DNA of 44,772 bases from NCBI GenBank assembly GCA_003154195.1, contig PMCS01000018.1, forward strand, positions 1-44,772, written 5' to 3'. Under the pieces are notes generated by a model. The model was not told the DNA's origin. It saw nothing but the letters and a program-made list of their open reading frames with translations, and searched no databases. Origin of the DNA: Candidatus Omnitrophota bacterium (GTDB lineage Bacteria > Omnitrophota > Gorgyraeia > Duberdicusellales > 4484-171). Both the position numbers and the translations under genes were made by a program. Each line of letters begins with the position of its first letter. Position 1 is the first letter of the stretch. Below are positions 19,145 to 32,370 of the stretch, piece by piece.

Positions 19145-19666
19145 TCACCGGGCAGAAGCCCGGGGATTTCCGGCGCGGGGTAAAGCGCGCCCTATCGCGT
19201 TTGTCACCGATGCCGCCGCCGCGCGGGTTTTTTGCGACAATTGCGCGTAAAAACCCAATGCTTGCGGTTGTATGCCGATGATGATTGTTTCGCAAGCAAT
19301 CGATTTATAAAGGTAATCGTTCATGACCTTTATCGGTATCCGATGGGTAGAGAAAGATGCGCCTGTTTCTTTGTCGATATCGACAATTTTAACCGTGCCC
19401 GGTTTTTGGTGAAAATCCACCGCATCAGTGATGATGATATGCGTCGGCTTGAATTTTTTTATCTCGCCGGTTAGATTTTCCGGCGCGGTACCCCCGAAAA
19501 AAACCTTAACATATTTTAGCTTATTTTTTTTTATGTATGTTTTAAGATCTTGCGCGATAACAATGCCGATTGCATCATCTCCCCTGATCTCTGAGCCAAT
19601 ACCTAATAAGGCAACCCGCTTCGCGTTTCCCAGCCTATTTTTTAGAGTCGTTATCAGTCCGGGCAT
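19145..19666 (-). CDS. hycI: HycI-type [NiFe] hydrogenase maturation endopeptidase
   Basis: Cleaves the C-terminal tail of the hydrogenase large subunit after nickel insertion. It contains LGIGSEIRGDDAIG (metal-sensing Asp region), ITDAVDFHQKPG and FSTHRIPIKVMNDYL, characteristic of the HycI branch that serves group 4 hydrogenases. The start at 19666 (MPGLITTLKNR) follows AAAGGGGAC; the ORF-track start is 8 codons longer. It overlaps the ferredoxin gene by 32 nt and is the last gene of the operon. The tail (RALPRAGNPRASAR) is low-complexity and may derive from a repeat. Confidence 0.93.
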   Translation of the reverse strand: MPGLITTLKNRLGNAKRVALLGIGSEIRGDDAIGIVIAQDLKTYIKKNKLKYVKVFFGGTAPENLTGEIKKFKPTHIIITDAVDFHQKPGTVKIVDIDKETGASFSTHRIPIKVMNDYLYKSIACETIIIGIQPQALGFYAQLSQKTRAAAASVTNAIGRALPRAGNPRASAR

Positions 19667-20027
19667 TGTCCCCTTTGGCATTAAAAACAACTTTTAATTT
19701 TTCCGGGTCTAAGCCGGCCAGTTCAAACTCTTCCGTAGTCTCCAGCGCTTTTTTAAAGCAGGAATCGACGCATTGCGCGCAATAAATACATTTTCCTAAA
19801 TTGATTTCCGCTTCAAATTCTTTATCGCCGATTTTTCTGATTTCGATCGCGCCGGTCGGGCAGTCGCGCATGCACATCTTGCAGCCGACACATTTTTTTG
19901 AGTCAAATTTTAATTTCCCCCGGAAACCTTCGGCGATGCCGGATTTTTGCGCCGGATAGTTTATCGTCGCCGGTTTTTTAAACAAAGATTTTATGAGTTG
20001 TGAAGCTATTTTCCCCGGCCAGCTCAT
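19635..20027 (-). CDS. Hydrogenase 2x[4Fe-4S] ferredoxin-like subunit (NuoI/HyfH-like)
   Basis: Electron-transfer subunit linking soluble ferredoxin to the catalytic small subunit on the cytoplasmic face. Two complete cluster motifs are present: C46/C49/C52/C56 (CVGCKMCMRDCP) and C80/C83/C86/C90 (CIYCAQCVDSC). The start at 20027 (MSWPGKIASQLIK) forms an ATGA overlap with the nuoH-like stop and has AAGGAG upstream; the ORF-track start adds 25 residues antisense to biology. At 130 aa it is slightly short of NuoI (about 160-180), as usual for hydrogenase versions. Confidence 0.93.
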   Translation of the reverse strand: MSWPGKIASQLIKSLFKKPATINYPAQKSGIAEGFRGKLKFDSKKCVGCKMCMRDCPTGAIEIRKIGDKEFEAEINLGKCIYCAQCVDSCFKKALETTEEFELAGLDPEKLKVVFNAKGDNARTDNDSKK

Positions 20028-20965
20028 CGTGGCAATGCTCCTTTTAGGAATAGATTTAATAAAACCTGCGCCAGCGCCAGCGGCGCAAGATATTTCCAGC
20101 ATAAACTGGTCATCTGATCCATGCGCAAGCGCGCGAAAAGAGTCCGTAAAAAGGCGATAATCGCGACAATTAAAAAAATCTGCGCCAGGTAAACCATGAA
20201 TAATGGGGCCGGCGGTAGATTCAGGCCGAACGGCATAAATACCGCCGCCAGCAAAGAGGCCGCCGCAATCGTTTCAATGTTAATCGCCATCTTGAATAAT
20301 GCCAGCGGTTTTCCCCCGTATTCCGTGAACGCGCCGGCGACGATCTCCGTTTCTGCTTCAGGTATATCGAAAGGTACCTTTTCCAGTTTTCCCAGGAGCG
20401 CGATCAGGGCTACGGCAAACCCCGGAAGATTAAACAAGCAATATCCGGGATGACGGTTGTAGAATAAAACTATTTCACTGATTGACCATGTGTCAGCGAG
20501 TAAGGCCGGAGCCAGAACGCATAAAAAAAGCGGTATTTCGTAAGCGAATAACTGAGTGAGCGTGCGTATCGCGCCGATCATTGAAAAAACTGAGCGTGAG
20601 TACCACCCGCCTAAAAAAAAGCACAGCGTGGGAATGGTCAAGAGGTACAGGACTACGATAATGTCCCCGCTGAAATGAAATGCAGCTTGAGGCGAATAAA
20701 CCGGTATATAAAAAATAGCGGTAATCGATGCGGCCAGCGCGAATACCGGCGTTGCTTTGAAAAAAGACGCATCAGCCTCCCCGGGGATTATTTCTTCTTT
20801 GCTTACCAGTTTTATAAAATCAGCAAATGGCTGGAACCATGGCGGGCCGACTCGATTCTGGAGCCGGGCATAGAGCTTCCGGTCTGCATATTCGACGACA
20901 AAACCAAAGATGAAGAGAAATAAAAATCCGGGAAAAACCAGGATGTGGAAAAGGGCCTTGAGCAT
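20024..20965 (-). CDS. Hydrogenase membrane subunit, NuoH/HyfC-like
   Basis: Membrane subunit anchoring the catalytic arm to the ion-pumping arm, with eight or so helices in 313 aa. Diagnostic motifs: ADRKLYARLQNRVGPPW and DFIKLVSKEE in the first cytoplasmic loop, and KVPFDIPEAETEIVAG with AFTEYGG, the acidic loop at the quinone/proton junction. The region before its ATG is the end of repeat A3 (GTCTCATTAATAAATT), and no Shine-Dalgarno is visible. Four-base overlap with the ferredoxin subunit. Confidence 0.95.
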   Translation of the reverse strand: MLKALFHILVFPGFLFLFIFGFVVEYADRKLYARLQNRVGPPWFQPFADFIKLVSKEEIIPGEADASFFKATPVFALAASITAIFYIPVYSPQAAFHFSGDIIVVLYLLTIPTLCFFLGGWYSRSVFSMIGAIRTLTQLFAYEIPLFLCVLAPALLADTWSISEIVLFYNRHPGYCLFNLPGFAVALIALLGKLEKVPFDIPEAETEIVAGAFTEYGGKPLALFKMAINIETIAAASLLAAVFMPFGLNLPPAPLFMVYLAQIFLIVAIIAFLRTLFARLRMDQMTSLCWKYLAPLALAQVLLNLFLKGALPR

Positions 20966-20971
20966 AATTTA

Positions 20972-21071
20972 TTAATGAGACTTCGCCGAAATCAAGCGCA
21001 GGGTGCGTAGATTGAGGCGGTAGTCGAATTATCAGCACTAATTTTGCTAAGGCACAATTAGTGCTGATATA
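20972..21071 (+). repeat. Repeat family A, copy A3 (shared head, different hairpin)
   Basis: The head ATTAATGAGACTTCGCCG...GAGGCGGTAGTCGAATTA matches A1/A2, but the following stem is replaced by TATCAGCACTAATT...AATTAGTGCTGATA. That second stem recurs in A4 as CAGCACTAATTTTG. Confidence 0.88.
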
Positions 21072-21156
21072 CCAATATCATTCCGCAATTATCATTGGAA
21101 ATCTAGTATATCAGTTTTTTTTCATTTTAAAACGATAATTGGTCAATGCTAAATTC
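21072..21156. repeat. Repeat family C, degenerate copy C5
   Basis: ATTATCATTGG, TTCATTTTAAAACG and GATAATTGGTCAATG are diverged family C words squeezed between A3 and A2. The whole 318-bp gap between the large-subunit and nuoH-like genes is repeat-derived. Confidence 0.55.
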
Positions 21157-21287
21157 ATTAATGAGACTTCGCCAAATCCAAGCCCGAAGGGCGCAGGATG
21201 AGGCGGTAGGCGAATTAGCCCGGACTAATTTCGTAGAAATTAGTCCGGGGTCAACGTAAACCACCGACGAAGTCGGTGGTACTTCAC
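21157..21287 (+). repeat. Repeat family A, copy A2 (inverted partner of A1)
   Basis: Begins ATTAATGAGACTTCGCCA and ends GGTGGTACTTCAC. The reverse complement of A1 differs by a single base by my alignment. Its last bases (GTGAAGTACC on the minus strand) supply the TGA stop codon of the hydrogenase large subunit. Confidence 0.93.
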
Positions 21288-22522
21288 TTTTTAAAGATGT
21301 CTGCCAACTTCTTATTCAAAAGCGTGAAATCTATCCCCCGTTCTTTATGCCACTCGATTCCCTTTAGGCGCAAAGTTTCCCATATCATAGTATGTTTATG
21401 TTTTTTATCTTGAGTATCCCGGATCGCTACCAGACGGTCGGTGCAGGAAAAGCAAGGGTCGATCGCCGCTACTACAATCGGCATGTCCGCCAGGTATCGA
21501 TCTTCCAGCATTTTGGAAACCGCCTGGATATTAGCCAGCGTCGGCGCTCTTACTTTTACCCGGTCGGGTTTTTCCGTGCCGTTGGCGCGGACATAATGCA
21601 AGTCTTCTCCCCGGGGAGCTTCATAGCGGCCGATTGCTTCGCCCGGGGGAATTTTGCGCGGTACTTTTACCGTAATGGCGCCGTCGGGAATTTTTTTCAT
21701 GATCTGGCGCACGATGCTGTACGATTCCATCAGTTCTCCCACGCGCACCAGGGTCCGGCCGTAGACGTCGCATTTATCGCTGGTGATAACTTTAAAATCA
21801 AGCTCGGCGTAAGCGGCATAGGGGTCGTCTTTACGCACGTCGCGTTCAATGCCGGAAGCCCGGCCGGTCGGCCCTACGGCGCCTAAATGCTGAGCGTCCT
21901 TGCGCGACAATACGCCTACCCCCGACAAGCGTTTTATCAATGTTGTTTCGGCTTGCGCGAGTTCGATATAATATTTTGTCCTTTCTTCCAGGGCATCCAT
22001 CGCGTTCAAAACTGCTTCTTTTTGCCCGGGTTTAATATCGCGCCTTACCCCGCCGATAGTATTGATGCCGTAATTCACCCGGTTGCCGGTCAGCTGGGCC
22101 AGAAGATCCATTACGATTTCGCGGTCGCGCCAGGTATACATCAACAGCGTATCGAAGCCGATTTCGTGGCCGGCTACGCCCAGCCATAAAAGATGGCTGT
22201 GAATACGCTCCAATTCGGCAATCAGTGTGCGGATGTATTTTGCCCGGACCGGTATTTCGATTCCGGCGATTTCCTCTACTGTTTGCGCAAAGCAGGTCGA
22301 ATGGGAATGCGAGCAAATACCGCAAATACGTTCGATGAGGTATAAATCCTGGATGTAAGTGCGTTCTTCACAGGCTTTTTCGATGCCGCGATGGTTGTAG
22401 CCCAGTTTTACGCTGGCGGCGGTAATTTTTTCTCCGTGCAGGCTTATTAAAAAACTTTCCGGTTCTTTTAACGCCGGATGCTGCGGCCCGATAGGAATTT
22501 GTACGTCACCGGAATTATGCAT
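21284..22522 (-). CDS. Group 4 [NiFe] hydrogenase large (catalytic) subunit
   Basis: Catalytic subunit binding the NiFe(CN)2CO centre. Both Cys pairs that distinguish hydrogenase from NuoD are intact: C67/C70 in RICGICSHSH and C357/C360 in DPCFSCTDR. A 49-residue tail follows R363, the expected cleavage point for the HycI-type protease encoded in the same operon. At 412 aa it lacks the NuoC-like fusion of HycE; NuoC is a separate gene just upstream. It should oxidise reduced ferredoxin and release H2 on the cytoplasmic side. The stop codon comes from repeat A2. The group 4 assignment rests on the motifs and neighbours; the subgroup is undecided. Confidence 0.96.
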   Translation of the reverse strand: MHNSGDVQIPIGPQHPALKEPESFLISLHGEKITAASVKLGYNHRGIEKACEERTYIQDLYLIERICGICSHSHSTCFAQTVEEIAGIEIPVRAKYIRTLIAELERIHSHLLWLGVAGHEIGFDTLLMYTWRDREIVMDLLAQLTGNRVNYGINTIGGVRRDIKPGQKEAVLNAMDALEERTKYYIELAQAETTLIKRLSGVGVLSRKDAQHLGAVGPTGRASGIERDVRKDDPYAAYAELDFKVITSDKCDVYGRTLVRVGELMESYSIVRQIMKKIPDGAITVKVPRKIPPGEAIGRYEAPRGEDLHYVRANGTEKPDRVKVRAPTLANIQAVSKMLEDRYLADMPIVVAAIDPCFSCTDRLVAIRDTQDKKHKHTMIWETLRLKGIEWHKERGIDFTLLNKKLADIFKK

Positions 22523-22539
22523 ATTGTTTCTCCTATTAT

Positions 22540-22622
22540 AGTGTCATAGTGTCAAAGTGTCACAGCGTCATAGTTGAATTACTTTGACTCTCTGCCCCTC
22601 TGACTCTCTGACGCTTTTGTTA
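22540..22622. repeat. GTGTCATA/CTCTGAC-word palindromic spacer
   Basis: AGTGTCATAGTGTCAAAGTG on one side and CTTTGACTCTCTG...CTCTCTGACGC on the other, complementary in part, between the large subunit and the NuoC-like gene. Confidence 0.55.
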
Positions 22623-22631
22623 ATCCTATCC

Positions 22632-23099
22632 TTAAACACTGCTTGCCGAAGGCCGGCCTTTCCAGTCCTTGCGCAACGGGTGTTCGCCTTTCGGCCAGTT
22701 GTCCGGCAAGGGATAGCTATTTCCCGCGGCGAGTCCGTTGACTGCGATTCCCAGTAAATCGATCAATTCTCTTTCGAAATTGTCCGCCCCGGGAAAATAG
22801 GAAGTGACGGTGTTAACTGCTGGTTTTTCTTTGTTTAAGTCAACCTTCAAGTTTACCAGGATTTTACCTTCCCGGTGAAGGTGGTAGATTACGGTAAAAC
22901 CGTTTCCCGAATCCAGGCCGGTTATCGCCGAAAGCGCGTCAAAGCGCGACTGTTTCACGAGATAGCGGAATACTTCCTCGAATTTTTCTAAAGGTATCTG
23001 CGCGAAAATGCGTGATTCTCTTTTGATAATTACTGCGTCTTTCAGGTAATTAAACCGGTTTTCTAATTCTTCTTTTATTTTTTCTCCGTCGAGCATCAT
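22632..23099 (-). CDS. Hydrogenase NuoC-like subunit
   Basis: A 155-aa cytoplasmic scaffold subunit corresponding to NuoC and the N-terminal part of HycE. The end of the conserved family motif is clear in YPLPDNWPKGEHPLRKDW, and the central YHLHREGKILVNLKVDL is the usual beta-rich core. GGAGG lies six bases upstream of the first of two adjacent ATGs. It binds the large subunit and carries no cofactor. Confidence 0.9.
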   Translation of the reverse strand: MMLDGEKIKEELENRFNYLKDAVIIKRESRIFAQIPLEKFEEVFRYLVKQSRFDALSAITGLDSGNGFTVIYHLHREGKILVNLKVDLNKEKPAVNTVTSYFPGADNFERELIDLLGIAVNGLAAGNSYPLPDNWPKGEHPLRKDWKGRPSASSV

Positions 23100-23200
23100 T
23101 CAAATCCTCCCAGAAAATGTTTACGATAAATTTTCCCAACTAAATACGGTAACAAAACTGTAAAGATTTTACCACTTTAAAATGAAATTCGTAATAACAT

Positions 23201-23635
23201 TTATTTTTCTTCCAGGCTCTTCAGCAGTTTGACTACTCCGTCAATAATCGCTTTGGGACTGGCCGGGCAGCCGGGGATATACGCCGAAACCGGTATGACC
23301 GAATTTATTCCGCCCTTTACGTTATAGCAGCCGTCAAAAACGCCTCCCGTGCAGGCGCAGGTTCCTATTGCCACTACGAATTTTGGCTCAAGCATTTGTT
23401 CATAGATGCGCAACAGCCGGGATTCGATTTGTTTGGTTACCGGGCCGGAGCACAAAAGTACATCGGCGTGCCGGGGGGTCGCTTTGAGGACTACTCCGAA
23501 GCGTTCGATGTCGTAACGCGGCGTGAGCGAAGCGATAATCTCGATATCGCAGGCATTACAGGCGCCGGTATTAAAATGTAAGACCCAGGGAGATTTTAAT
23601 CTGGACCAGTTGATTATTTTGGTGGCGATACTCAT
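23201..23635 (-). CDS. Group 4 [NiFe] hydrogenase small subunit (NuoB-like)
   Basis: Binds the proximal [4Fe-4S] cluster that passes electrons to the NiFe site. The four ligands are visible: C26 and C29 (GACNACDIE), C93 (GTCACTGG) and C123 (PGCPASP). The common CNGCD reads CNACD here. At 144 aa it has no signal peptide and no extra clusters, as in Ech/Mbh/Hyf-type small subunits. Repeats D/C3 lie between it and the NuoA-like gene. Confidence 0.95.
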   Translation of the reverse strand: MSIATKIINWSRLKSPWVLHFNTGACNACDIEIIASLTPRYDIERFGVVLKATPRHADVLLCSGPVTKQIESRLLRIYEQMLEPKFVVAIGTCACTGGVFDGCYNVKGGINSVIPVSAYIPGCPASPKAIIDGVVKLLKSLEEK

Positions 23636-23659
23636 TTTCTACCCTATTTTAAAATTACT

Positions 23660-23870
23660 GTTTCTCTTAAAAACAAAACCATAAAGATTTTACCACCAAG
23701 ACACAAAGGCACCAAAACCAACGATTAATTCATTTTAAAATTATCATTGGGCATTGAACATTTATCATTTTTAAAAATTTAAAATGGCAGATGCTCAATG
23801 GACAATTTAAAATGAAATCACGCATTTATAATCTTAGTGCCTTGGTGGCATAAATTTCTATCATTTTTTC
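23660..23870. repeat. Nested repeat: family D arms around family C copy C3
   Basis: The left arm ACCACCAAGACACAAAGGC and right arm CTTAGTGCCTTGGTGGC are inverted complements that enclose palindrome C3 (23732-23812; ATTTTAAAATTATCATTGG ... CAATTTAAAAT). This is the clearest example of the nested plan. Confidence 0.88.
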
Positions 23871-23914
23871 CAATTGATATGATTTATGTTTTTATTGTTT
23901 TCAAATATCACGTT

Positions 23915-24247
23915 TCACTTTCGTAATAAAACAATCAACCCGGTGATTGCCCCGATTATATAGACTACGGCGATGGCAAATATTTCGGTAGTTTCTACGG
24001 GAACTGTAGCAATCGTCAGGGCGGCTACGTGTAAAATAGTAAAGAAAAAAGCAAAGGGAAAAAACTGGCTGTAGTCCGGTTGGATCATGTGGCCTTTGAA
24101 ATCTTCGCCGCAGGCGTAGGCCTCATTCGCTCCGGACGGTTTCTTTTTTTTCCGGAAAGCGTAGCATGAACAAACCCGGGACAAGGCGATGATCGTAAAA
24201 AATATTATTATAAAAGCTACCGGCGGCCAAAAAATTATTTTTTCCAT
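23915..24247 (-). CDS. Hydrogenase NuoA-like membrane subunit
   Basis: A 110-aa protein with three hydrophobic helices (about 7-28, 62-82 and 86-107) and a cytoplasmic loop with AYACGED, corresponding to the NuoA loop motif PYECG. DYSQFFPFAFFFTILHVAAL matches NuoA helix 2. NuoA homologues are hallmarks of complex I and are absent from the classic Hyc, Coo and Ech hydrogenases. Its place between the K-like and B-like genes repeats part of a nuo operon. Assignment by motif only; a search would settle it. Confidence 0.78.
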   Translation of the reverse strand: MEKIIFWPPVAFIIIFFTIIALSRVCSCYAFRKKKKPSGANEAYACGEDFKGHMIQPDYSQFFPFAFFFTILHVAALTIATVPVETTEIFAIAVVYIIGAITGLIVLLRK

Positions 24248-24297
24248 AGTTTATTTCAATGTTTTTTTGGTGCTCTATTAATTCTATGAATTTCTTT

Positions 24298-24420
24298 CCT
24301 GCCGACCCGCTTCGACTCGCGTCCGCTTCGGCAAGCCGAAGGCGAGACGGGTCACGCGAGGCGAGTAGGCAGGAGTGATCGGGAAAATCCCTGCCTTTCG
24401 GCAGGGATTTTCCCGATCAG
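24298..24420. repeat. Repeat family B, copy B2 (cruciform plus 19-bp hairpin)
   Basis: CCTGCCGACCCGCTTCGACT begins a cruciform almost identical to B1, in the same orientation. A different second stem follows: GATCGGGAAAATCCCTGCC, loop TTTC, and its perfect complement (24377-24418). The stem overlaps the stop codon of the NuoK-like gene. There is no T-run. Confidence 0.92.
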
Positions 24421-24737
24421 CCTTTCAGATTACTTAATTTTCTCGGGTCAATGCTTTCGTTATGGCGAAACGCCCATAGGATGATGCCGCCCGCGACAAC
24501 CATGACCACGATCTCGATGACGATGAGGGTGATGACGATTGCCTGCGCCAGCGCGGACCGGCCGCAAAGATAACCCGCCAGGATGATTAAAAGCGTTGCC
24601 GCTTTGATCAGGAGCTCCAAGCCGATCATGGCGCGGACCATGTTAAAAGTTGCGGCGATGCAATAGGCTCCGCAGATGAACAAAAGGATGATAAAAATCA
24701 TAAAATAGGAAAACAATCCTGCCAGGTCAGGGCTCAT
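24417..24737 (-). CDS. Hydrogenase NuoK/MnhC-like membrane subunit
   Basis: A 106-aa protein with three membrane helices. The two buried glutamates characteristic of NuoK/MnhC are present: E41 (MIGLELLIKA) and E75 (LIVIEIVVMV). AAGGAGG precedes the ATG, which forms an ATGA overlap with the NuoJ-like gene. It is expected to form part of the proton pathway in the membrane arm. Confidence 0.88.
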   Translation of the reverse strand: MSPDLAGLFSYFMIFIILLFICGAYCIAATFNMVRAMIGLELLIKAATLLIILAGYLCGRSALAQAIVITLIVIEIVVMVVAGGIILWAFRHNESIDPRKLSNLKG

Positions 24738-25216
24738 TTGTCCTCCTTAAATAAGACTACTACGCCGAAGGCGCCGGCCAGAAGAATCACGATCTGGCCG
24801 AGAAGATCCAGGTGCCGCAGGTACCAGATGATGTTACGTACATCTTCCTTCGGCCCTGCCGCCGGTAAATTAAACTGGGGTATTTTAAAACACCAGCTTA
24901 AGACCAAGCCGGCGGCAATAATTATAAAAGGTAAGTAGCGGAACCTGACCAGTCTTTCTTTGCGCGCAACGGGCAATTCTTCTTTGCTGATCCGGTGCGT
25001 AAAGCTTACCGTGGTAATAAAAATGACCGGAATGAGCCCGGCGCAGACCGAAAGCTCAAATACCGCCGCCAGCGGCGAATTGAGCCGGTAGATTACCGCG
25101 GCAAGGACCGCGCTGGTGAATGCCAGCCCTACGATTGAGCGGATGAGCCGCGTCGTCATCACGGTCCATACGGCGGCGCTAAGTAAAACAAATAAAAGAA
25201 TTAAATTAATCAACAT
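24734..25216 (-). CDS. Hydrogenase NuoJ-like / MnhB-DUF4040-like membrane subunit
   Basis: A 160-aa protein with about five hydrophobic segments. SPLAAVFELSVCAGLIPVIFIT in the first half is shared in style with NuoJ and with the DUF4040/MnhB modules of Mrp-type hydrogenases; the order J-K is as in complex I. The ATG at 25216 was preferred to the GTG two codons earlier used by the ORF track; neither has a strong ribosome site. Whether it is nearer NuoJ or MbhE/MnhB cannot be decided by eye. Confidence 0.7.
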   Translation of the reverse strand: MLINLILLFVLLSAAVWTVMTTRLIRSIVGLAFTSAVLAAVIYRLNSPLAAVFELSVCAGLIPVIFITTVSFTHRISKEELPVARKERLVRFRYLPFIIIAAGLVLSWCFKIPQFNLPAAGPKEDVRNIIWYLRHLDLLGQIVILLAGAFGVVVLFKEDK

Positions 25217-25305
25217 TGTCACACTCGATTATTCTTCTTCGCCGAATCTTTCTACTATAAAGCTACGAAGGAAAGGCGTAAGAAGAAAAAATATTTACCG
25301 ATCAT

Positions 25306-26772
25306 CTAATGCCAGATGGCTTTTAACGGTAAAAACCAGGTATTAAGCATAAACGCGTAACCAAGGCCGCCGGCGATGGTAAAGACAGCAAGTAATATTT
25401 CGGCGCAGGCTATCCCGGAAAAATTTTTTGCCGGATTCAGGCCGCGGGAAATTTGTGTTGCCGTCCCGCCTGCCGCCGGCGCCGGTTTGCCTTTATTGAA
25501 AAAAATCCGGCGTTCCAGAGAAAGAAAATAGGCCAGCGTAATGATGCTGGCGATAAGAGCCGTCCCGGCATAAATAAATCTACCTTTACTGAATAGCGCC
25601 ATGACGATAATGAGTTTACTCCAGAATCCCGACAACGGCGGGATTCCCGCCGTAGAAAGCATAGCGACTAAAGAAGTAACGCTGGTAACCGGGCATTTTT
25701 CGCCGAGGCCTTCTAATTGATTAATATCGGTTGTGCCGAACCGTTTCTCCAGGGAAGCGGCATTCACGAAAAGCAGTGTTTTAAAGATCGCGTGATTGAA
25801 AAAATGAAATACCGCGCCCACGAAGGCGAGCGGCGTGCCGCAGCCCAAGGCAAGGATGATGTAGCCTACCTGGCTGATGCTGGAATAGGCCAGCATCCGC
25901 TTGAAATCGTCCTGGGTAAGCGCCGCCAGCGCGGCAAAGACTATCGATATCGCGCCGGCGAATAAAAGTACGTTTTGCAGCGCCGGGGTCAGGGTGAATA
26001 CTGAACTGAAGAGGCGCAGCAATATGTAGACGCCGGAAATCTTAGTCACCGTTCCGGCTAAAAGTACGGATACGCAAGACGGCGCTGCTGAATAGGCGTC
26101 CGGCAGCCAGCCATGGAAAGGAACGACACCGGACTTGATCAGCAGGCCGCATAAAAATAATCCTACTGCCAGTTTAAGAAAAAAACTACCGGGAACATTT
26201 GTCAATACGTGATGAACGGCGGCGAAAGATATGTCGCCCGCGGTAAGCAGGAGAAAAGCTACGGAAGTCAGCATGAAAACACTGGCGATGGCGGAAAGCA
26301 TGAGGTATTTAAAAGCTCCCTCAATGGCGAATTTTCCTTTTTCCAGGGCAATGAGAATAAATGACGCCATTGCCGTGACTTCGATAAACACGTAGAGGGA
26401 AAAAATATCGGTCACCAGCACCGTAGCGTTCATGCCGATAAGCGCGACTAAAAGGAGATTGATAAAATTGAATTTTTGTTTTTCCCCCGCAAGGGTATCT
26501 TGCGCGGTTAAAAGTGAGACTAACGCTACGATTCCGATGACAAAAAGCATGATCAAAGCCAGATTGTCGACGGCTAAGGGAAAACCAAAAAACTGCCTTA
26601 AGCAATCCGGATAAGCGCTCCAGAAGAGCCAGGGGTGAAACGCGGCCAGCAAAACCTGAGCCAGCAGTAAGGACGCGGCCAGGCAAAAAGCGCAACGCCC
26701 TTTGAGAAACCCCAGGGGGAAATTGATAATAACCAAAAGAAAAAATGGCGCGAAAATAAATAACGAAGTCAT
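25306..26772 (-). CDS. Hydrogenase antiporter-like subunit 3 (NuoM/NuoN/MrpD-like)
   Basis: A 488-aa protein with about fourteen helices and the proton_antipo_M core. SGVVPFHGWLPDAYSAAPS and DDFKRMLAYSSISQVGYI carry the conserved lysines of the proton channel, and EVTAMASFILIAL provides the helix-5 glutamate. AAAGGA precedes the ATG. It is the third of three consecutive antiporter-like genes that would form the distal membrane arm. Confidence 0.92.
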   Translation of the reverse strand: MTSLFIFAPFFLLVIINFPLGFLKGRCAFCLAASLLLAQVLLAAFHPWLFWSAYPDCLRQFFGFPLAVDNLALIMLFVIGIVALVSLLTAQDTLAGEKQKFNFINLLLVALIGMNATVLVTDIFSLYVFIEVTAMASFILIALEKGKFAIEGAFKYLMLSAIASVFMLTSVAFLLLTAGDISFAAVHHVLTNVPGSFFLKLAVGLFLCGLLIKSGVVPFHGWLPDAYSAAPSCVSVLLAGTVTKISGVYILLRLFSSVFTLTPALQNVLLFAGAISIVFAALAALTQDDFKRMLAYSSISQVGYIILALGCGTPLAFVGAVFHFFNHAIFKTLLFVNAASLEKRFGTTDINQLEGLGEKCPVTSVTSLVAMLSTAGIPPLSGFWSKLIIVMALFSKGRFIYAGTALIASIITLAYFLSLERRIFFNKGKPAPAAGGTATQISRGLNPAKNFSGIACAEILLAVFTIAGGLGYAFMLNTWFLPLKAIWH

Positions 26773-26820
26773 AAGTTCCTTTATTTCTATGAATTAAAAC
26801 AACTATTATTGGCAGCGATT

Positions 26821-28641
26821 TTACTTAATAGCAAATAATGTTACCAAAAGTGCGCCGGTCAGCGCCCAGACAACGTAAATTATATAGTAACCGGCATGTG
26901 CTTTACGGATTATCATCGAGCATCCGCAAGCCGCTTTTACCGTAAAAAAATCATAAAACCAATCGATGCTCTTATCGATGCCGCTCAGCAAACCGGCAAT
27001 CCAGTTTACCAGTTTTACTCCCAACTCATAGGGATCGAAATATTTCTTTTCTGCCCACCGGTATATCGCCGATAATACCGGAGCGTGATGGATGTGGTCG
27101 GCGGCCTTAAGCCCGCTCCCCTTTATCTTTGCCGCGGCATAATGGTGGATAAGAGCCGCGGCTAATACCGCTATCGTGATGAGGACAAGCGGTAAACTGG
27201 ACGGCCAGCCCGCGAAATTGTGGTTTTCCGACGCCCGCCCCAGGATCGGCTGAATAAAATCATTAATTGGTATACGGTTAAATACGCCGAAAAAAACGCA
27301 GGTTAACGCGAGGATGATCATCGGGATAAGCATGGAAAGGGGCGCTTCCTTTATTCCTTTATCCTCCCGGCGCGGCTTGTCGCAAAAAGCGGCGTGCCCC
27401 AATTTTAAGAACGAAGCGGCGGTGAAAAATGAGCCGATCAGCGCCGCCAGATAAAATATCTTTCCCCGTTCCAGCGCCGCGTCGTAGATCAATTCCTTGG
27501 AGAAAAAACCGTTAAACGGCGGCACCCCGGATATGGAGGCGGCCGTTACTAAAAAGCAGAAGAACGTTACCGGCATCGTTGAACGCAGCCCGCCGAGCTG
27601 GTCAAGGTCGGTAGTGCCGGCCTGTTTTTCTACGGTTCCCGCCGTCAAAAACAGGCCGCATTTATATACGGCGTTATTAAGCATATGAAAAATACCGCCG
27701 ATTATTCCCGCCGGCAGGCAGGTGCCGATACCCAGAATCATATAGCCGACCTGGCTGATGGCATGATAGGAAAGAAGCCGTTTATAATCTTTTTGGACCA
27801 AAGCCATCATCACCGCCAGAAGTATCGTTATGGCGCCTACGGCCATAAGGACGACACTCAACGAGTTATGGCTGTCGAGTTTGAACATGTCCAGGGTAAT
27901 CCGGGTGAGGAAGTATATTCCTAAAAGTTTTTCCAGCGCCGCCGGGAAAAAAGCCATGAAGGGAAGCGGAGAATCCTGCGCGGCATCGGGGATCCAGGTG
28001 TGAAAAGGCATGGAACCGGCTTTCGCGATCGCGCCGATGATTAAAAGAATAAACGCGAGGCTGCCGAGCCGGTCAAGGCCAAGGTGGATATCTTGTATGA
28101 TCAGCGTTTTGGCGATATACCCGGTTAAAATAATCCCCGCCATCATGCAGAGATCGGAAGCGCCCACGATGATAAATGATTTAGTCGCGGTTTTAAATGC
28201 CTGTTTTCCTCCGATGGCAATCAAGCCGTAAATCGTCAGCAGTAACCCTTCCCAGAAGAAAAGCAGGGTCACCAGGTGATTCGCCAGGACCGCGCCGTTG
28301 ACGAAAGAGAGAGCCAGCAGAAAAAAACCGTAAAATTGCCGCGCGCTGCTTTTATTTTTGAGAAATTCAAGCGAATATAAGCTGATCAGTAAACTGAAAA
28401 AGGAAACCGCTAAGATAATAAAACCGCTGAAGTGATAAAGCCGGAGCGCGAAGTCTATCCCCCATCCTATCCAAGGGAAGATGATCGTAGTTTCTTTCCG
28501 GAACAATAGCACGGCAATCAAAAAATTAACGAGCGCGGCTAAAAAAGCGCAAACGCCCCGCCATTTTACCGGTAAGACAAAAGTTATGGCGGCGGCAATT
28601 AGAGGGATCAGGATAAGTGAGATCATTAATGTTTCCATCAT
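26821..28641 (-). CDS. Hydrogenase antiporter-like subunit 2 (NuoL/HyfB-like)
   Basis: A 606-aa protein, close to NuoL length. The core motifs are AGSMPFHTWIPDAAQDSP and KDYKRLLSYHAISQVGYM, with FFWEGLLLTIYGL as the helix-5 segment. After the antiporter fold, the C terminus (KYFDPYELGVKLVNWIAGL and following helix) resembles the NuoL tail that forms the lateral helix. The ATG overlaps the stop of the gene upstream by four bases (ATGA). Confidence 0.92.
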   Translation of the reverse strand: MMETLMISLILIPLIAAAITFVLPVKWRGVCAFLAALVNFLIAVLLFRKETTIIFPWIGWGIDFALRLYHFSGFIILAVSFFSLLISLYSLEFLKNKSSARQFYGFFLLALSFVNGAVLANHLVTLLFFWEGLLLTIYGLIAIGGKQAFKTATKSFIIVGASDLCMMAGIILTGYIAKTLIIQDIHLGLDRLGSLAFILLIIGAIAKAGSMPFHTWIPDAAQDSPLPFMAFFPAALEKLLGIYFLTRITLDMFKLDSHNSLSVVLMAVGAITILLAVMMALVQKDYKRLLSYHAISQVGYMILGIGTCLPAGIIGGIFHMLNNAVYKCGLFLTAGTVEKQAGTTDLDQLGGLRSTMPVTFFCFLVTAASISGVPPFNGFFSKELIYDAALERGKIFYLAALIGSFFTAASFLKLGHAAFCDKPRREDKGIKEAPLSMLIPMIILALTCVFFGVFNRIPINDFIQPILGRASENHNFAGWPSSLPLVLITIAVLAAALIHHYAAAKIKGSGLKAADHIHHAPVLSAIYRWAEKKYFDPYELGVKLVNWIAGLLSGIDKSIDWFYDFFTVKAACGCSMIIRKAHAGYYIIYVVWALTGALLVTLFAIK

Positions 28642-30083
28642 AAAGGTTTAGCCGTCATCTGTTGAACGGCTGCCGCAACTATTCTGTTGGGATATTGGAT
28701 AAAACACCCCCCCGCTAATGATAAGAACGCGAACAGGGCGACGCAAAACACCATTAACGGTGAACTTCCGGAAACGGGAACTTTGTTCATTTCTCCCAGA
28801 AAAATCATATTAAAAGTCCTGAATAAGTACATCAGTGTTAAGAGCGCCCCGAATAGAAATATGCCGGCAATCGCTAAATGTCCGGCCTGAAGGGTTCCCG
28901 CGATGACCATGTATTTGCTGAAAAATCCTCCAAAAGGAGGGATGGCCATCACCGAAAAAGCGCAAAAAAGAAACGATATGGCGGTAACCGGCATAACGTG
29001 GATCAGCCCTCCCATTTGAGTGATATCTTTTGTTTTAGTCCTCTGCTCGATTATCCCGGCGCATAAGAAAAGGCCGGCTTTGCCTAAGCCGTGCATGAGG
29101 ATATACAATAAACCGCCGGCAATGCCGATCTCGTTGCCCATGGAGAATCCCAGGAAGATAAACGCGATCTGGCTGACGGTAGAATAGGCGATGATTCGTT
29201 TCAGGTCGGTTTCGACCAGCGCCGCGCCTGCCGAAACTAAAGCGCTTAATCCGATGATGACCGGGAAAATAGCATGCCACAGGGCGCCCAGCGGCATGGT
29301 GGCGATAAACAACCGGGCAAAAACATAGACGCCGATTTTAACCAGGACGGCCGCGTGCAGCAGGGCGGTAACCGGTGAAGGCGCTACGCCGGCGTCGGGA
29401 AGCCAGGTGTGCAGCGGCAGCGTTGCCGATTTAGCTAATATTCCCGTCAGGATCAAACCGATCGCCAAGTTGGAAATAGAGTGGGCCTTGACCGCCGCTT
29501 TTATCGCCGCTAAATCAAAAGAGCCCGTTTCGCTATGGAGTTTAATAAAGCCCAAGAGCATTACCAGGGCGCCGAATACCGTAACTAAAAACGCTTTGTC
29601 GGCGCGCAAAACATGTTGTTTTTCCCTGAAGAAACCGATCAGCCGCCAACTGGTGATTGCGGTGATTTCCCAGAAAACATACAGGAGTATTAAATTAGCG
29701 GCAAAAACCAGGCCCATCATCGCGCCAAGGAACAAAACAACCATAAAGTAGTATTCCCGCTGGTTTTCGTAATGGCTGATGTACTCAAAAGAGTATAAGA
29801 TGATTATCGCGCTGATGAATGAAGAGACCATTGCCATAAATACCGCCAGGATATCGGCGGTGAGGATAAAATTAAAGCCTAAAGGAAGGTTCAGGATGAT
29901 ATTTATTTCCCGTCCGCCGATAACCGTCGGCAGGATGAAGGCGGAAAGCAAGAATGACGCGAAAACCAGGGTAAATGCCGTCAGGTTTCTTAATTTTACC
30001 GAGGCTCGGTCGATCAGGGGCAAAATGGCCGCGCCGATCAAGGGAAGGAAAACCAGTAAAAATAATGCCTGTTCTTTATTCAT
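28638..30083 (-). CDS. Hydrogenase antiporter-like subunit 1 (MrpD/NuoN-like), first gene of operon
   Basis: A 481-aa protein with about fourteen helices. KSATLPLHTWLPDAGVAPSP and TDLKRIIAYSTVSQIAF are the channel motifs; YVFWEITAITSW gives the helix-5 glutamate. As the first gene it lies downstream of the riboswitch-like leader and repeat A4. No Shine-Dalgarno is visible; the bases before the ATG (CTCATTATATGAATT) are the end of A4. The order of three antiporter-like genes ahead of the catalytic genes differs from nuo operons. Confidence 0.92.
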   Translation of the reverse strand: MNKEQALFLLVFLPLIGAAILPLIDRASVKLRNLTAFTLVFASFLLSAFILPTVIGGREINIILNLPLGFNFILTADILAVFMAMVSSFISAIIILYSFEYISHYENQREYYFMVVLFLGAMMGLVFAANLILLYVFWEITAITSWRLIGFFREKQHVLRADKAFLVTVFGALVMLLGFIKLHSETGSFDLAAIKAAVKAHSISNLAIGLILTGILAKSATLPLHTWLPDAGVAPSPVTALLHAAVLVKIGVYVFARLFIATMPLGALWHAIFPVIIGLSALVSAGAALVETDLKRIIAYSTVSQIAFIFLGFSMGNEIGIAGGLLYILMHGLGKAGLFLCAGIIEQRTKTKDITQMGGLIHVMPVTAISFLFCAFSVMAIPPFGGFFSKYMVIAGTLQAGHLAIAGIFLFGALLTLMYLFRTFNMIFLGEMNKVPVSGSSPLMVFCVALFAFLSLAGGCFIQYPNRIVAAAVQQMTAKPL

Positions 30084-30087
30084 AATT

Positions 30088-30290
30088 CATATAATGAGAC
30101 TTAGATTTTCTCAAACTCGAAGAGCGCAGAGAAAATCTGTAGTCGAATCAATAAAACTTGGCCTGCCGTAAACGGCAGGGCTTAGTTTTATTGCCAGCAC
30201 TAATTTTGCCGTAGCAAAATTAGTGCTGGGTTTGATACTTCGCCGAAATCAAGCGCAAGGCGCGTAGGTCGAGGCGGCAGTTGATGTGGC
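30088..30290 (+). repeat. Repeat family A, copy A4 (four hairpin modules)
   Basis: In order: a head with GACTTAGATTTTCTC/GAGAAAATCTGTAGTC; a hairpin AATAAAACT...CCTGCCGT/ACGGCAGG...AGTTTTATT, shared with H2 at 39766-39780; the stem CAGCACTAATTTTG/CAAAATTAGTGCTG, shared with A3; and a second head, ACTTCGCCG...GAGGCGGCAGT. A mosaic of parts found elsewhere. Confidence 0.85.
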
Positions 30291-30327
30291 ATGCGCGCCG
30301 ATTTCAGTCGGATTATTTGCTGAAAAC

Positions 30328-30354
30328 AAAAAACCAGAGAGCATTTCCTCTGGT
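30328..30354 (-). terminator. Intrinsic terminator
   Basis: ACCAGAG, an 8-nt loop, CTCTGGT, then TTTTTT on the minus strand. It ends transcription from the sensory operon or, conditionally, of the leader RNA before the hydrogenase operon. Confidence 0.85.
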
Positions 30355-30437
30355 GGTATTCTCCTCTTCGGGCCGATGAGGTTAGCTGTGCCCTGGTAGC
30401 GTTTTATCCCGTTATTCTTCAGGAGGTATAGTTTATA
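30328..30437 (-). ncRNA. Riboswitch-like leader RNA upstream of the hydrogenase operon
   Basis: Starting just past the kinase stop, the minus strand reads a compact non-coding segment with hairpin CCTCATC/GAAGAGG (loop GGCCC), upstream CGGG and TACCAGGGCACAG, then an intrinsic terminator. The segment ACCAGGG (30391-30397) can pair over seven bases, one of them a G-U, with CTCTGGT, the 3' arm of the terminator, giving a ready antiterminator. That is the logic of a transcriptional riboswitch or attenuator. I do not recognise the class: the c-di-GMP-I, SAM, TPP, fluoride and cobalamin signatures are absent. It may instead be only the end of the kinase transcript. Confidence 0.5.
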
Positions 30438-30453
30438 GCAGAAAAAAATTATG

Positions 30454-32370
30454 TCAAGATTCAGATATTATCCGGTTGATTACCTCACTTAAATCGATTA
30501 CGTTATATGGTTTAGGCAGCATGCCTTTAAAACCATACTCCCGGTAGTTAGCCATGACCGGGTCGTCGCAATAGCCGCTGGAAACGATAGCTTTAACCTT
30601 GGGGTCTATTTTAATTATTTCCCGTAGCGTATCTTTTCCGCCCATCCCCCCGGGGATGGTTAAATCCATGATCAGTAAAGTAAAAGGCGTGCCTGCGTCT
30701 TTATTCTTTTTGTACAAATCAAGAGCTTCCGTCCCATTACGGGAAAATTCAACGTCGTAACCGATATATTTGATTAAATGCCCGAGAGAGCGTAAAACTA
30801 TTTCTTCGTCGTCCATGACCAGGATTCTTCCTTTTCCGGTTACGATCTCGCCGGAATATTTTCTTTCTTTGTCGGGTATAACCTGAGATGCCGGTAAATA
30901 AACCGAAACGGTTGTCCCGGTTCCCGGTTTAGATTCCACTCGGATCTCGCCGTGATGGCGTTTGATAATCGAATAGGTCACGGCAAGGCCGAGGCCTGAG
31001 CCGGTGCTTTTCGTGGAAAAATAAGGGTCAAATATTTTAGTGAGATGCTTTTCGGGGATCCCCACCCCTTCATCGTGTACGGTTATGCCGACATAGCGGT
31101 CATTTCTTAAGAAAGAAAATTTGCCTTTCCCGCCTTCAATATTTTCCAACCGTATCTCAATCGTACCGCCGGAAGGCATGGCTTGCAGGGAGTTAATCAC
31201 CAGGTTATCGATAATCTGGTTAAATTGGCCGGTATCTACTTCGACCGGATGTAAATCGTTTTTCGCAAAAATTTTATAACTGACCCTTGAGCCGCGCAGG
31301 GCAAACTTTACCTGTTCTTTTACGATATCCGTAAGGTAAACCGATCTTTTGGTCAGGATTCCGCCTTTGGAAAAAGTAACTAACTGGTTGGTGAGGCTTT
31401 TGGCTTTGATGACTGCTTGTTCCGCCTCGGTTAAAACTTCATTAACCGGAAGATTCGGGTCAAGGTTGCATTTGACATAGGCAATATTATTTAAAATGGC
31501 CGTCATGATGTTATTAAAATCATGAGCGAGCCCCCCGGCCATGACGCTGAGCGCTTCAAGTTTTTGAACTTTCATCGCTTCCGCTTCTATTTTACGTTTC
31601 TCCGTCACGTCGCGGAAAACCACAACCACTCCGATAATCTTGTTGTCCATATCGCGAAGCGGGGCTACGCTGTCTTCAATAAATAATTCCGAACCGTTCT
31701 GGGAAATAAGTATGCTGTCCAAAGGAAGAAAGGTGACATCGCCGGTTTTTACTGCTTTTTCGAAAAGATTTTCCTGCGGTTTATTGTCGGAGCTGTTAAC
31801 GATTTTAAAAACTTCCGTAAAAGGCTTGCCGGATGCTTCGGAAAATTTCCAGCCGGTAAGCTCTTCGGCAACGCCGTTCATCAAGTTTATTTTGCCGTCG
31901 GCATCGACGGCGATAACACCGTCGCCGATTGACGCCAGGGTTATTTCCAGGCGTTTCTTTTCCGCCGCGACCGCCCGTTCATAACGTTTACGCTCCAGGG
32001 CGTATAAAATCGCCCGAACCAGGAGATTCGCGTCGATCTGCCCTTTGACTAAATAATCCTGAGCGCCGCAACGCACCGCCTCCACAGCCAATTTTTCATC
32101 GGATAAACCCGTAAGGAGAAGTATCGGCGGTTCGCGGCCCAATTGCTTTAGGCGTAAAAATGTATCGAGGCCGTGGCTGTCGGGTAAGCTCAAATCGAGC
32201 AAAACAACGTCGATATTGCCGCGTTCAAGGCGTCCGATACTTTCATCCAGGCGGCCCAGGCATTCAAGCTCAAAAGAAAATCTTCCTGCTTCCTTAAGCA
32301 TTTCCCTGATAAGGCGCGCGTCGCCCGGGTTATCTTCGACCAGCAATATTCGTATATTGGCGTTATTCAT
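30454..32370 (-). CDS. Hybrid histidine kinase: REC-PAS-HisKA-HATPase-REC
   Basis: A 638-aa cytoplasmic sensor kinase with no membrane helix. N-terminal receiver with D59 (VVLLDLSLPDS), PAS domain about 140-255, phosphoacceptor H283 in LAHDFNNIM, ATPase domain about 375-495 (DEGVGIPE, GSGLGLAV), and C-terminal receiver with D569 (LIMDLTIPGG). The C-terminal two thirds closely resemble the 761-aa kinase at 35556, so they are paralogues. The start overlaps the Rcp1-like regulator gene by 8 nt, and it is the last gene of the four-gene unit. It probably receives phosphate from that regulator or the upstream kinase. Confidence 0.93.
   Translation of the reverse strand: MNNANIRILLVEDNPGDARLIREMLKEAGRFSFELECLGRLDESIGRLERGNIDVVLLDLSLPDSHGLDTFLRLKQLGREPPILLLTGLSDEKLAVEAVRCGAQDYLVKGQIDANLLVRAILYALERKRYERAVAAEKKRLEITLASIGDGVIAVDADGKINLMNGVAEELTGWKFSEASGKPFTEVFKIVNSSDNKPQENLFEKAVKTGDVTFLPLDSILISQNGSELFIEDSVAPLRDMDNKIIGVVVVFRDVTEKRKIEAEAMKVQKLEALSVMAGGLAHDFNNIMTAILNNIAYVKCNLDPNLPVNEVLTEAEQAVIKAKSLTNQLVTFSKGGILTKRSVYLTDIVKEQVKFALRGSRVSYKIFAKNDLHPVEVDTGQFNQIIDNLVINSLQAMPSGGTIEIRLENIEGGKGKFSFLRNDRYVGITVHDEGVGIPEKHLTKIFDPYFSTKSTGSGLGLAVTYSIIKRHHGEIRVESKPGTGTTVSVYLPASQVIPDKERKYSGEIVTGKGRILVMDDEEIVLRSLGHLIKYIGYDVEFSRNGTEALDLYKKNKDAGTPFTLLIMDLTIPGGMGGKDTLREIIKIDPKVKAIVSSGYCDDPVMANYREYGFKGMLPKPYNVIDLSEVINRIISES

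Follow-up and report, generated by a model that had tools for sequence, protein, structure and literature searches.

What controls transcription into the hydrogenase operon of this uncultured Omnitrophota bacterium, and does the RNA leader ahead of it belong to a new regulatory class, a known one or none? We address this question for a contig of 44,772 nucleotides, hereafter the window. A preliminary description had presented the segment ahead of the operon as a riboswitch-like leader of no recognised class, with mutually exclusive terminator and antiterminator structures and possibly an ion, a redox cofactor or an H2-related compound as its ligand.

Layout of the leader and the operon

The elements at this locus all lie on the minus strand, in the order kinase gene, promoter, leader, terminator and hydrogenase operon, and the leader runs in descending coordinates, from 30457 to 30084. 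Gene calls and domain matches place a histidine kinase/response-regulator gene upstream, in the same direction (30454–32370). The leader promoter (30430–30457) consists of the −35 box TTGACA (30457–30452), which overlaps the kinase stop codon TGA, a 16-nt spacer and the −10 box TAAACT (30435–30430), with 10 of 12 consensus matches; from its position, transcription is predicted to start at about 30424–30421. The arrangement TTGACA-16-TAnAAT also occurs at the equivalent site before the orthologous operon in four relatives (L020, L021, L022 and L023). About 95 nt of leader separate the promoter from the terminator hairpin. The intrinsic terminator (30323–30354) has an 8-bp stem, ACCAGAGG-AAAUGC-UCUCUGGU, at 30354–30333, followed by a U-rich tail (TTTTTGTTTT; UUUUUGUUUU).

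Between the terminator and the start codon lies an untranslated stretch of 244 nt (30084–30327) made of dispersed palindromic repeats in tandem. The hairpins in this insertion belong to no sensor, because the repeats match 74 sites genome-wide. The first operon gene, of the Proton_antipo_M family, begins at 30083, and twelve genes for a complex-I-like [NiFe] hydrogenase follow by gene calls and domain matches (19145–30083), in line with the preliminary description. They encode three Proton_antipo_M subunits, Oxidored_q3, q2 and q4 subunits, NuoB-, NuoC-, NuoD/hydrogenase-large- and NuoH-like subunits, a 4Fe-4S ferredoxin and, at the end of the operon (19145), a HycI maturation protease.

The leader matches the 3′ end of c-di-AMP riboswitches

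We built a profile and a covariance model (R2) from 16 c-di-AMP (ydaO, RF00379) riboswitches of the same class of bacteria, using only copies ahead of non-hydrogenase genes, most of which precede K+ and other transporters. The profile matched the window at 30389–30314 with 43.6 bits (E = 5.8e-13 in the 44.8 kb searched). Trimmed to the terminator, it scored 37.1 bits with nhmmer, against a best score of 9.1 in 100 shuffled windows (4.5 Mb). The expression platform supplies most of this score: the platform profile alone gave 30.1 bits (E = 1.7e-8) in the window against 10.8 for the best of 4.5 Mb of shuffled sequence, and the 12-nt aptamer core strand alone was weak at 5.7 bits. The covariance model R2 scored 39.1 bits (E = 1.3e-6) in the window, and the leader was its sole match in its own 2.48-Mb genome (E = 7e-5). 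Nearly all other R2 matches in 292 genomes of the class were c-di-AMP riboswitches themselves; the weak ones included another hydrogenase leader (L053/L220) and a decaying c-di-AMP riboswitch (L225). Two further R2 matches outside RF00379 (L226 and L222) were set aside as unrelated or chance by appearance.

The RF00379-type sequences align with the 3′ part of the transcribed leader only. By profile and covariance model alignment, the window retains the 3′ aptamer core strand ACAGCUAACCUC (30378–30389), in which the core CAGCUAACCUC is exact at 30388–30378; the same core is found in the crystallised ydaO aptamer sequence (PMC5393176). The core strand is followed by a 23-nt linker, AUCGGCCCGAAGAGGAGAAUACC (30355–30377), the GAGAAUA of which is the counterpart of the platform antiterminator strand (GAGAGAAUGC in relatives). 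The standard expression platform of the class, GAGAAU…ACCAGAG…UCUCUGGUUUUUU, is kept in the window, and by the platform profile its terminator is the same one that the c-di-AMP riboswitches of the class use. The core strand (30389–30378) and the terminator block are the parts that carry the signal; the preliminary description had singled out neither.

The 5′ part of the aptamer, in comparison, is missing. A 5′ aptamer profile found no match in 400 nt around the leader, and profile and alignment agree that the blocks GGGGAACC and GGGGCGAAU and the 5′ strand of P1, all parts of the two ligand pockets, are absent from the window, as is the GCCCGA strand. At least 89% of the class sequences agree at 35 aptamer positions, of which the window keeps about 10 and lacks about 25. 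RF00379 itself gave no match in the window, none at E ≤ 10 in a 221-nt stretch and none genome-wide at E ≤ 0.1. The wider Rfam scan, at gathering and lax thresholds, returned nothing usable: no family reached its gathering score in the window and none matched the leader, Na+-I (DUF1646) included. The genome does encode a diadenylate cyclase (DAC domain PF02457 at G000:C8:118533-118883, E = 1.5e-38). By its profile and covariance model matches, the leader is a homologue of a known riboswitch, that for c-di-AMP, in its 3′ end and platform. The notion of a riboswitch-like attenuator is upheld by the promoter, the terminator and a platform shared with true riboswitches; that of an unrecognised class is not upheld.

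Intact and partial forms precede the orthologous operon in relatives

To compare leaders at the same operon, we fetched orthologous operons by the first operon protein (mostly 60–72% identical) from the same family, the class and two sister families, and read the upstream DNA. The nearest named records by protein were a WOR-1 bacterium (62%) and Aerophobetes (45%). At the DNA level, the leader is single-copy in its 2.48-Mb genome; it found no relative in 37 genomes of the family and no match in a plasmid collection.

The comparison of upstream regions, which the preliminary description had proposed, brought out one locus with a complete riboswitch. In L168, an RF00379 c-di-AMP riboswitch (1324–1485, 72.1 bits) immediately precedes the orthologous operon and ends in the terminator also seen in the window. 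Its core CAGCUAACCUC is identical to that of the window, and its CCCGACAGCUAACCUC-23 nt-ACCAGAGAAAAUCAUUCUCUGGUUUUUU aligns with AGGGCACAGCUAACCUC-23 nt-ACCAGAGGAAAUGCUCUCUGGUUUUUU of the window. L149 keeps the 3′ aptamer and the platform, at a contig end, so that at least the 3′ half is present (the contig starts there). L053, like the window, has the platform and traces of the aptamer, and L054, L075, L147, L148 and L157 have the terminator block alone. Five of these loci (L149, L053, L054, L147 and L148) come from one genus (g99). Read as a sequence series, the complete form in L168, the partial form in L149, the traces in the window and L053 and the bare terminators represent stages of the same loss.

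Across the class, RF00379 riboswitches above the cut-off occur in 23 of the 292 genomes, and many end in the same platform. They precede TrkH (L171) and KdpA (L173) genes and also, as judged by eye, more genes for transporters of K+ and of other kinds. As a separate observation, L225 (1501–1593; G298:C45:8600-8692) is by eye one more copy in decay: its diverged c-di-AMP riboswitch, which RF00379 misses, precedes a K+-transporter-like gene.

A probably decayed riboswitch that may persist as an attenuator

We consider it probable that the transcribed leader (30328–30423) is a decayed, shortened ydaO/RF00379 c-di-AMP riboswitch that now acts as a plain attenuator without normal c-di-AMP control. 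In known cases, c-di-AMP binding promotes termination (PMC6488665, PMC9337991). From these other bacteria, we infer that the ancestor would have been an OFF switch between the promoter and the hydrogenase operon, terminating transcription upon c-di-AMP binding. What is left of it in this genome is ACAGCUAACCUC, from the 3′ side of the aptamer, and the platform with its terminator, still behind the promoter; the 5′ aptamer with most of the ligand pockets is absent. RNA polymerase would then start at the promoter, most of it would stop at about 30323, and read-through would supply the twelve-gene operon. Without GGGGAACC and GGGGCGAAU, neither pocket is expected to form; the loss of ligand binding, the residual attenuation and the history of decay are likewise deductions. 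Because most of the ligand-site sequence is missing, the window copy is probably a remnant that no longer works as a sensor, which also tells against the earlier suggestion that it senses an ion, a redox cofactor or H2.

As a counterpoint, the same shortened form occurs in no relative of the same family; with this form in a single genome, decay and lineage-specific re-design look alike in terms of conservation. The well-formed promoter and terminator could mean that some regulation is still selected. It is also possible that an assembly error removed part of the aptamer, the sequence being that of a single draft genome.

One rival is a c-di-AMP riboswitch that works in spite of its shortening, or a half-aptamer altered in its ligand or affinity, with the platform still under its control. 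The retained promoter and core ACAGCUAACCUC, the platform with the 23-nt spacing of L168 and the diadenylate cyclase in the genome are all compatible with it, and a one-pocket variant is imaginable in view of the pseudo-symmetry between the two pockets of the crystallised riboswitch (PMC5393176). We nevertheless regard it as unlikely: about 25 of the 35 conserved aptamer positions are gone, with GGGGAACC and GGGGCGAAU among them, the antiterminator strand of the window is poorer than in intact relatives, and no second example of the shortened form was found in the 37 family genomes (DNA search) or the 292 class genomes (R2). The specific case of a half-size, c-di-AMP-derived riboswitch, with one pocket or a new ligand, working at the hydrogenase operon is rather improbable; if true, it would represent a riboswitch class caught in the act of switching ligand or shedding a subdomain while keeping its platform.

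The leader goes with the operon

On the strand of the kinase gene, the terminator follows the stop codon of that gene by about 100 nt and must end kinase transcripts regardless of any other role, and it could accordingly be read as the plain terminator of the kinase gene, within its 3′ UTR, with no leader function. We regard this reading as unlikely. A consensus −35/−10 promoter separates the stop codon from the terminator, and the platform is homologous to riboswitch leaders. The order promoter, terminator, operon also recurs with quite different upstream genes: a promoter and an intrinsic terminator lie within 300 nt before the first gene at 28 of 55 hydrogenase loci, compared with 22 of 300 other genes on the same contigs, a count in which the relatives are not independent and in which the window itself falls beyond the 300-nt limit. 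In operons headed by a pyrophosphatase gene, it is before that gene that the leader is placed. Because of this enrichment at the operon, the position ahead of the front pyrophosphatase gene and the variation of the upstream genes by lineage, it is the operon that the leader accompanies, rather than the gene upstream.

Folding and pairing do not point to a new class

A new riboswitch class for an ion, a redox cofactor or an H2-related ligand would fit the position ahead of a hydrogenase operon and the lack of any Rfam family at threshold. The homology to the 3′ end and platform of the c-di-AMP riboswitch makes it very unlikely, and the sequence is single-copy and its fold unremarkable. The terminator within the structured segment described earlier is well formed (8-bp stem, U-rich tail), but the fold as a whole is only slightly beyond shuffled sequences: the leader has z = −1.24 against dinucleotide shuffles, 20 of 200 shuffles fold equally well, and single-sequence folding of the coding strand was not significant. 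The proposed antiterminator, ACCAGGG with CUCUGGU of the terminator 3′ arm, can indeed form seven base pairs. A run of this length is at chance level, arising in 12% of shuffled leaders against the 3′ arm and in 30% against the whole hairpin; the pairing is not present in the intact relative L168, and we do not retain the switching model built on it. The small pseudoknot suggested between CGGG and GGCCC could likewise form and finds no comparative support. The energy gap between terminator and terminator-free structures is 9–15 kcal/mol in intact and decayed leaders alike; this comparison does not distinguish working from broken switches.

ANTAR-type and other leaders in the class

Many relatives carry a different leader, for which we use the model R1. 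In it, a small hairpin with six bases in its loop, AAGAC-NNNGNN-GUCUU, and the 5′ arm of a terminator, GUCUUC…GAAGAC, overlap. A1 and G4 are present in the loops, in agreement with the description of ANTAR targets (PMC3369931). L151, L153, L154, L156 and L169 have a GAF-ANTAR gene immediately ahead of the hydrogenase operon, as judged by Pfam GAF and ANTAR matches in L151, L154 and L169 and by sequence similarity in L153 and L156. The leaders of L151, L153 and L154 have the A1/G4 hexaloop hairpin overlapping the terminator, and ANTAR antitermination of the hydrogenase operon is likely at these three loci. A leader of this kind in the window, read by an ANTAR protein as before the same operon in other lineages, would be in keeping with these sister-lineage hairpins and with the GAF-ANTAR protein encoded in the genome (G000:C17:930-1085, E = 8e-21), but it is scarcely credible: R1, excellent for other lineages, had no match in the window's genome, and the leader lacks the A1/G4 hexaloop hairpin, its only six-base loop being that of the terminator hairpin (AAAUGC).

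Other leaders of the class were noted in passing. At L126, L127, L128, L130, L132, L134, L140 and L143, R1-type leaders precede amtB-, nadE- and gltB-like genes, by eye mostly right after a GAF-ANTAR gene, and often have two hexaloop hairpins and two terminators in series; from the sequences, we read them as a putative ANTAR nitrogen regulon in the class. A third type (L060, L061, L062, L067, L069, L079, L088, L164 and L169) has a stem GAAGCC...AGGURGGCUU with a frequent C.A mismatch, and is possibly also read by ANTAR proteins, with loops such as AAAGAA and AAUGAA. In a fourth (L071, L073, L155, L161, L163, L165 and L166), ACCCAATTCGNGTTAACC and a short hairpin, CCUU...AAGG-CUUUUU, come after the promoter.

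Significance and comparison with known systems

In place of a candidate new riboswitch class, this locus offers a traceable history, with intact, partial and bare-terminator forms at one and the same energy-conserving hydrogenase across related bacteria that are uncultured. Because the decay forms of the c-di-AMP riboswitch and the ANTAR leaders share the same operon, our results suggest that an early terminator is a lasting feature of the operon and that the sensor ahead of it is exchanged or lost. Our literature search found no c-di-AMP riboswitches or ANTAR leaders tied to hydrogenase operons. Control of an ion-pumping hydrogenase by c-di-AMP, if true, would join osmotic and K+ signalling to fermentative energy metabolism.

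Among known systems, the Na+-I (DUF1646) riboswitch resembles the leader only in its general ion-related gene setting, and it had no Rfam match in the window. ANTAR antiterminator leaders of the EutV and NasR type (PMC3369931) likewise place a terminator before an operon, and other families of the class have them at the orthologous operon, but they carry the A1/G4 hexaloop hairpin that the window lacks. The c-di-AMP riboswitch of the kdpFABC operon in Bacillus thuringiensis (PMC6488665) is, like the window leader, an attenuator between a promoter and a membrane ion-transport operon, with an intrinsic terminator after the aptamer; its aptamer is complete and its response to c-di-AMP proven, whereas the aptamer of the window is incomplete. 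The c-di-AMP riboswitch as a class (ydaO/yuaA, RF00379) shares with the leader the core ACAGCUAACCUC, the platform and terminator with the spacing of L168, the position between promoter and operon and a c-di-AMP synthesis gene in the genome. The window leader differs from it in the distance between transcription start and terminator, about 100 nt against about 200, in lacking the P1 5′ strand, GGGGAACC, GGGGCGAAU and the GCCCGA strand, with a score below the RF00379 threshold, and in preceding a hydrogenase operon where the other copies in these bacteria precede K+ and other transporters.
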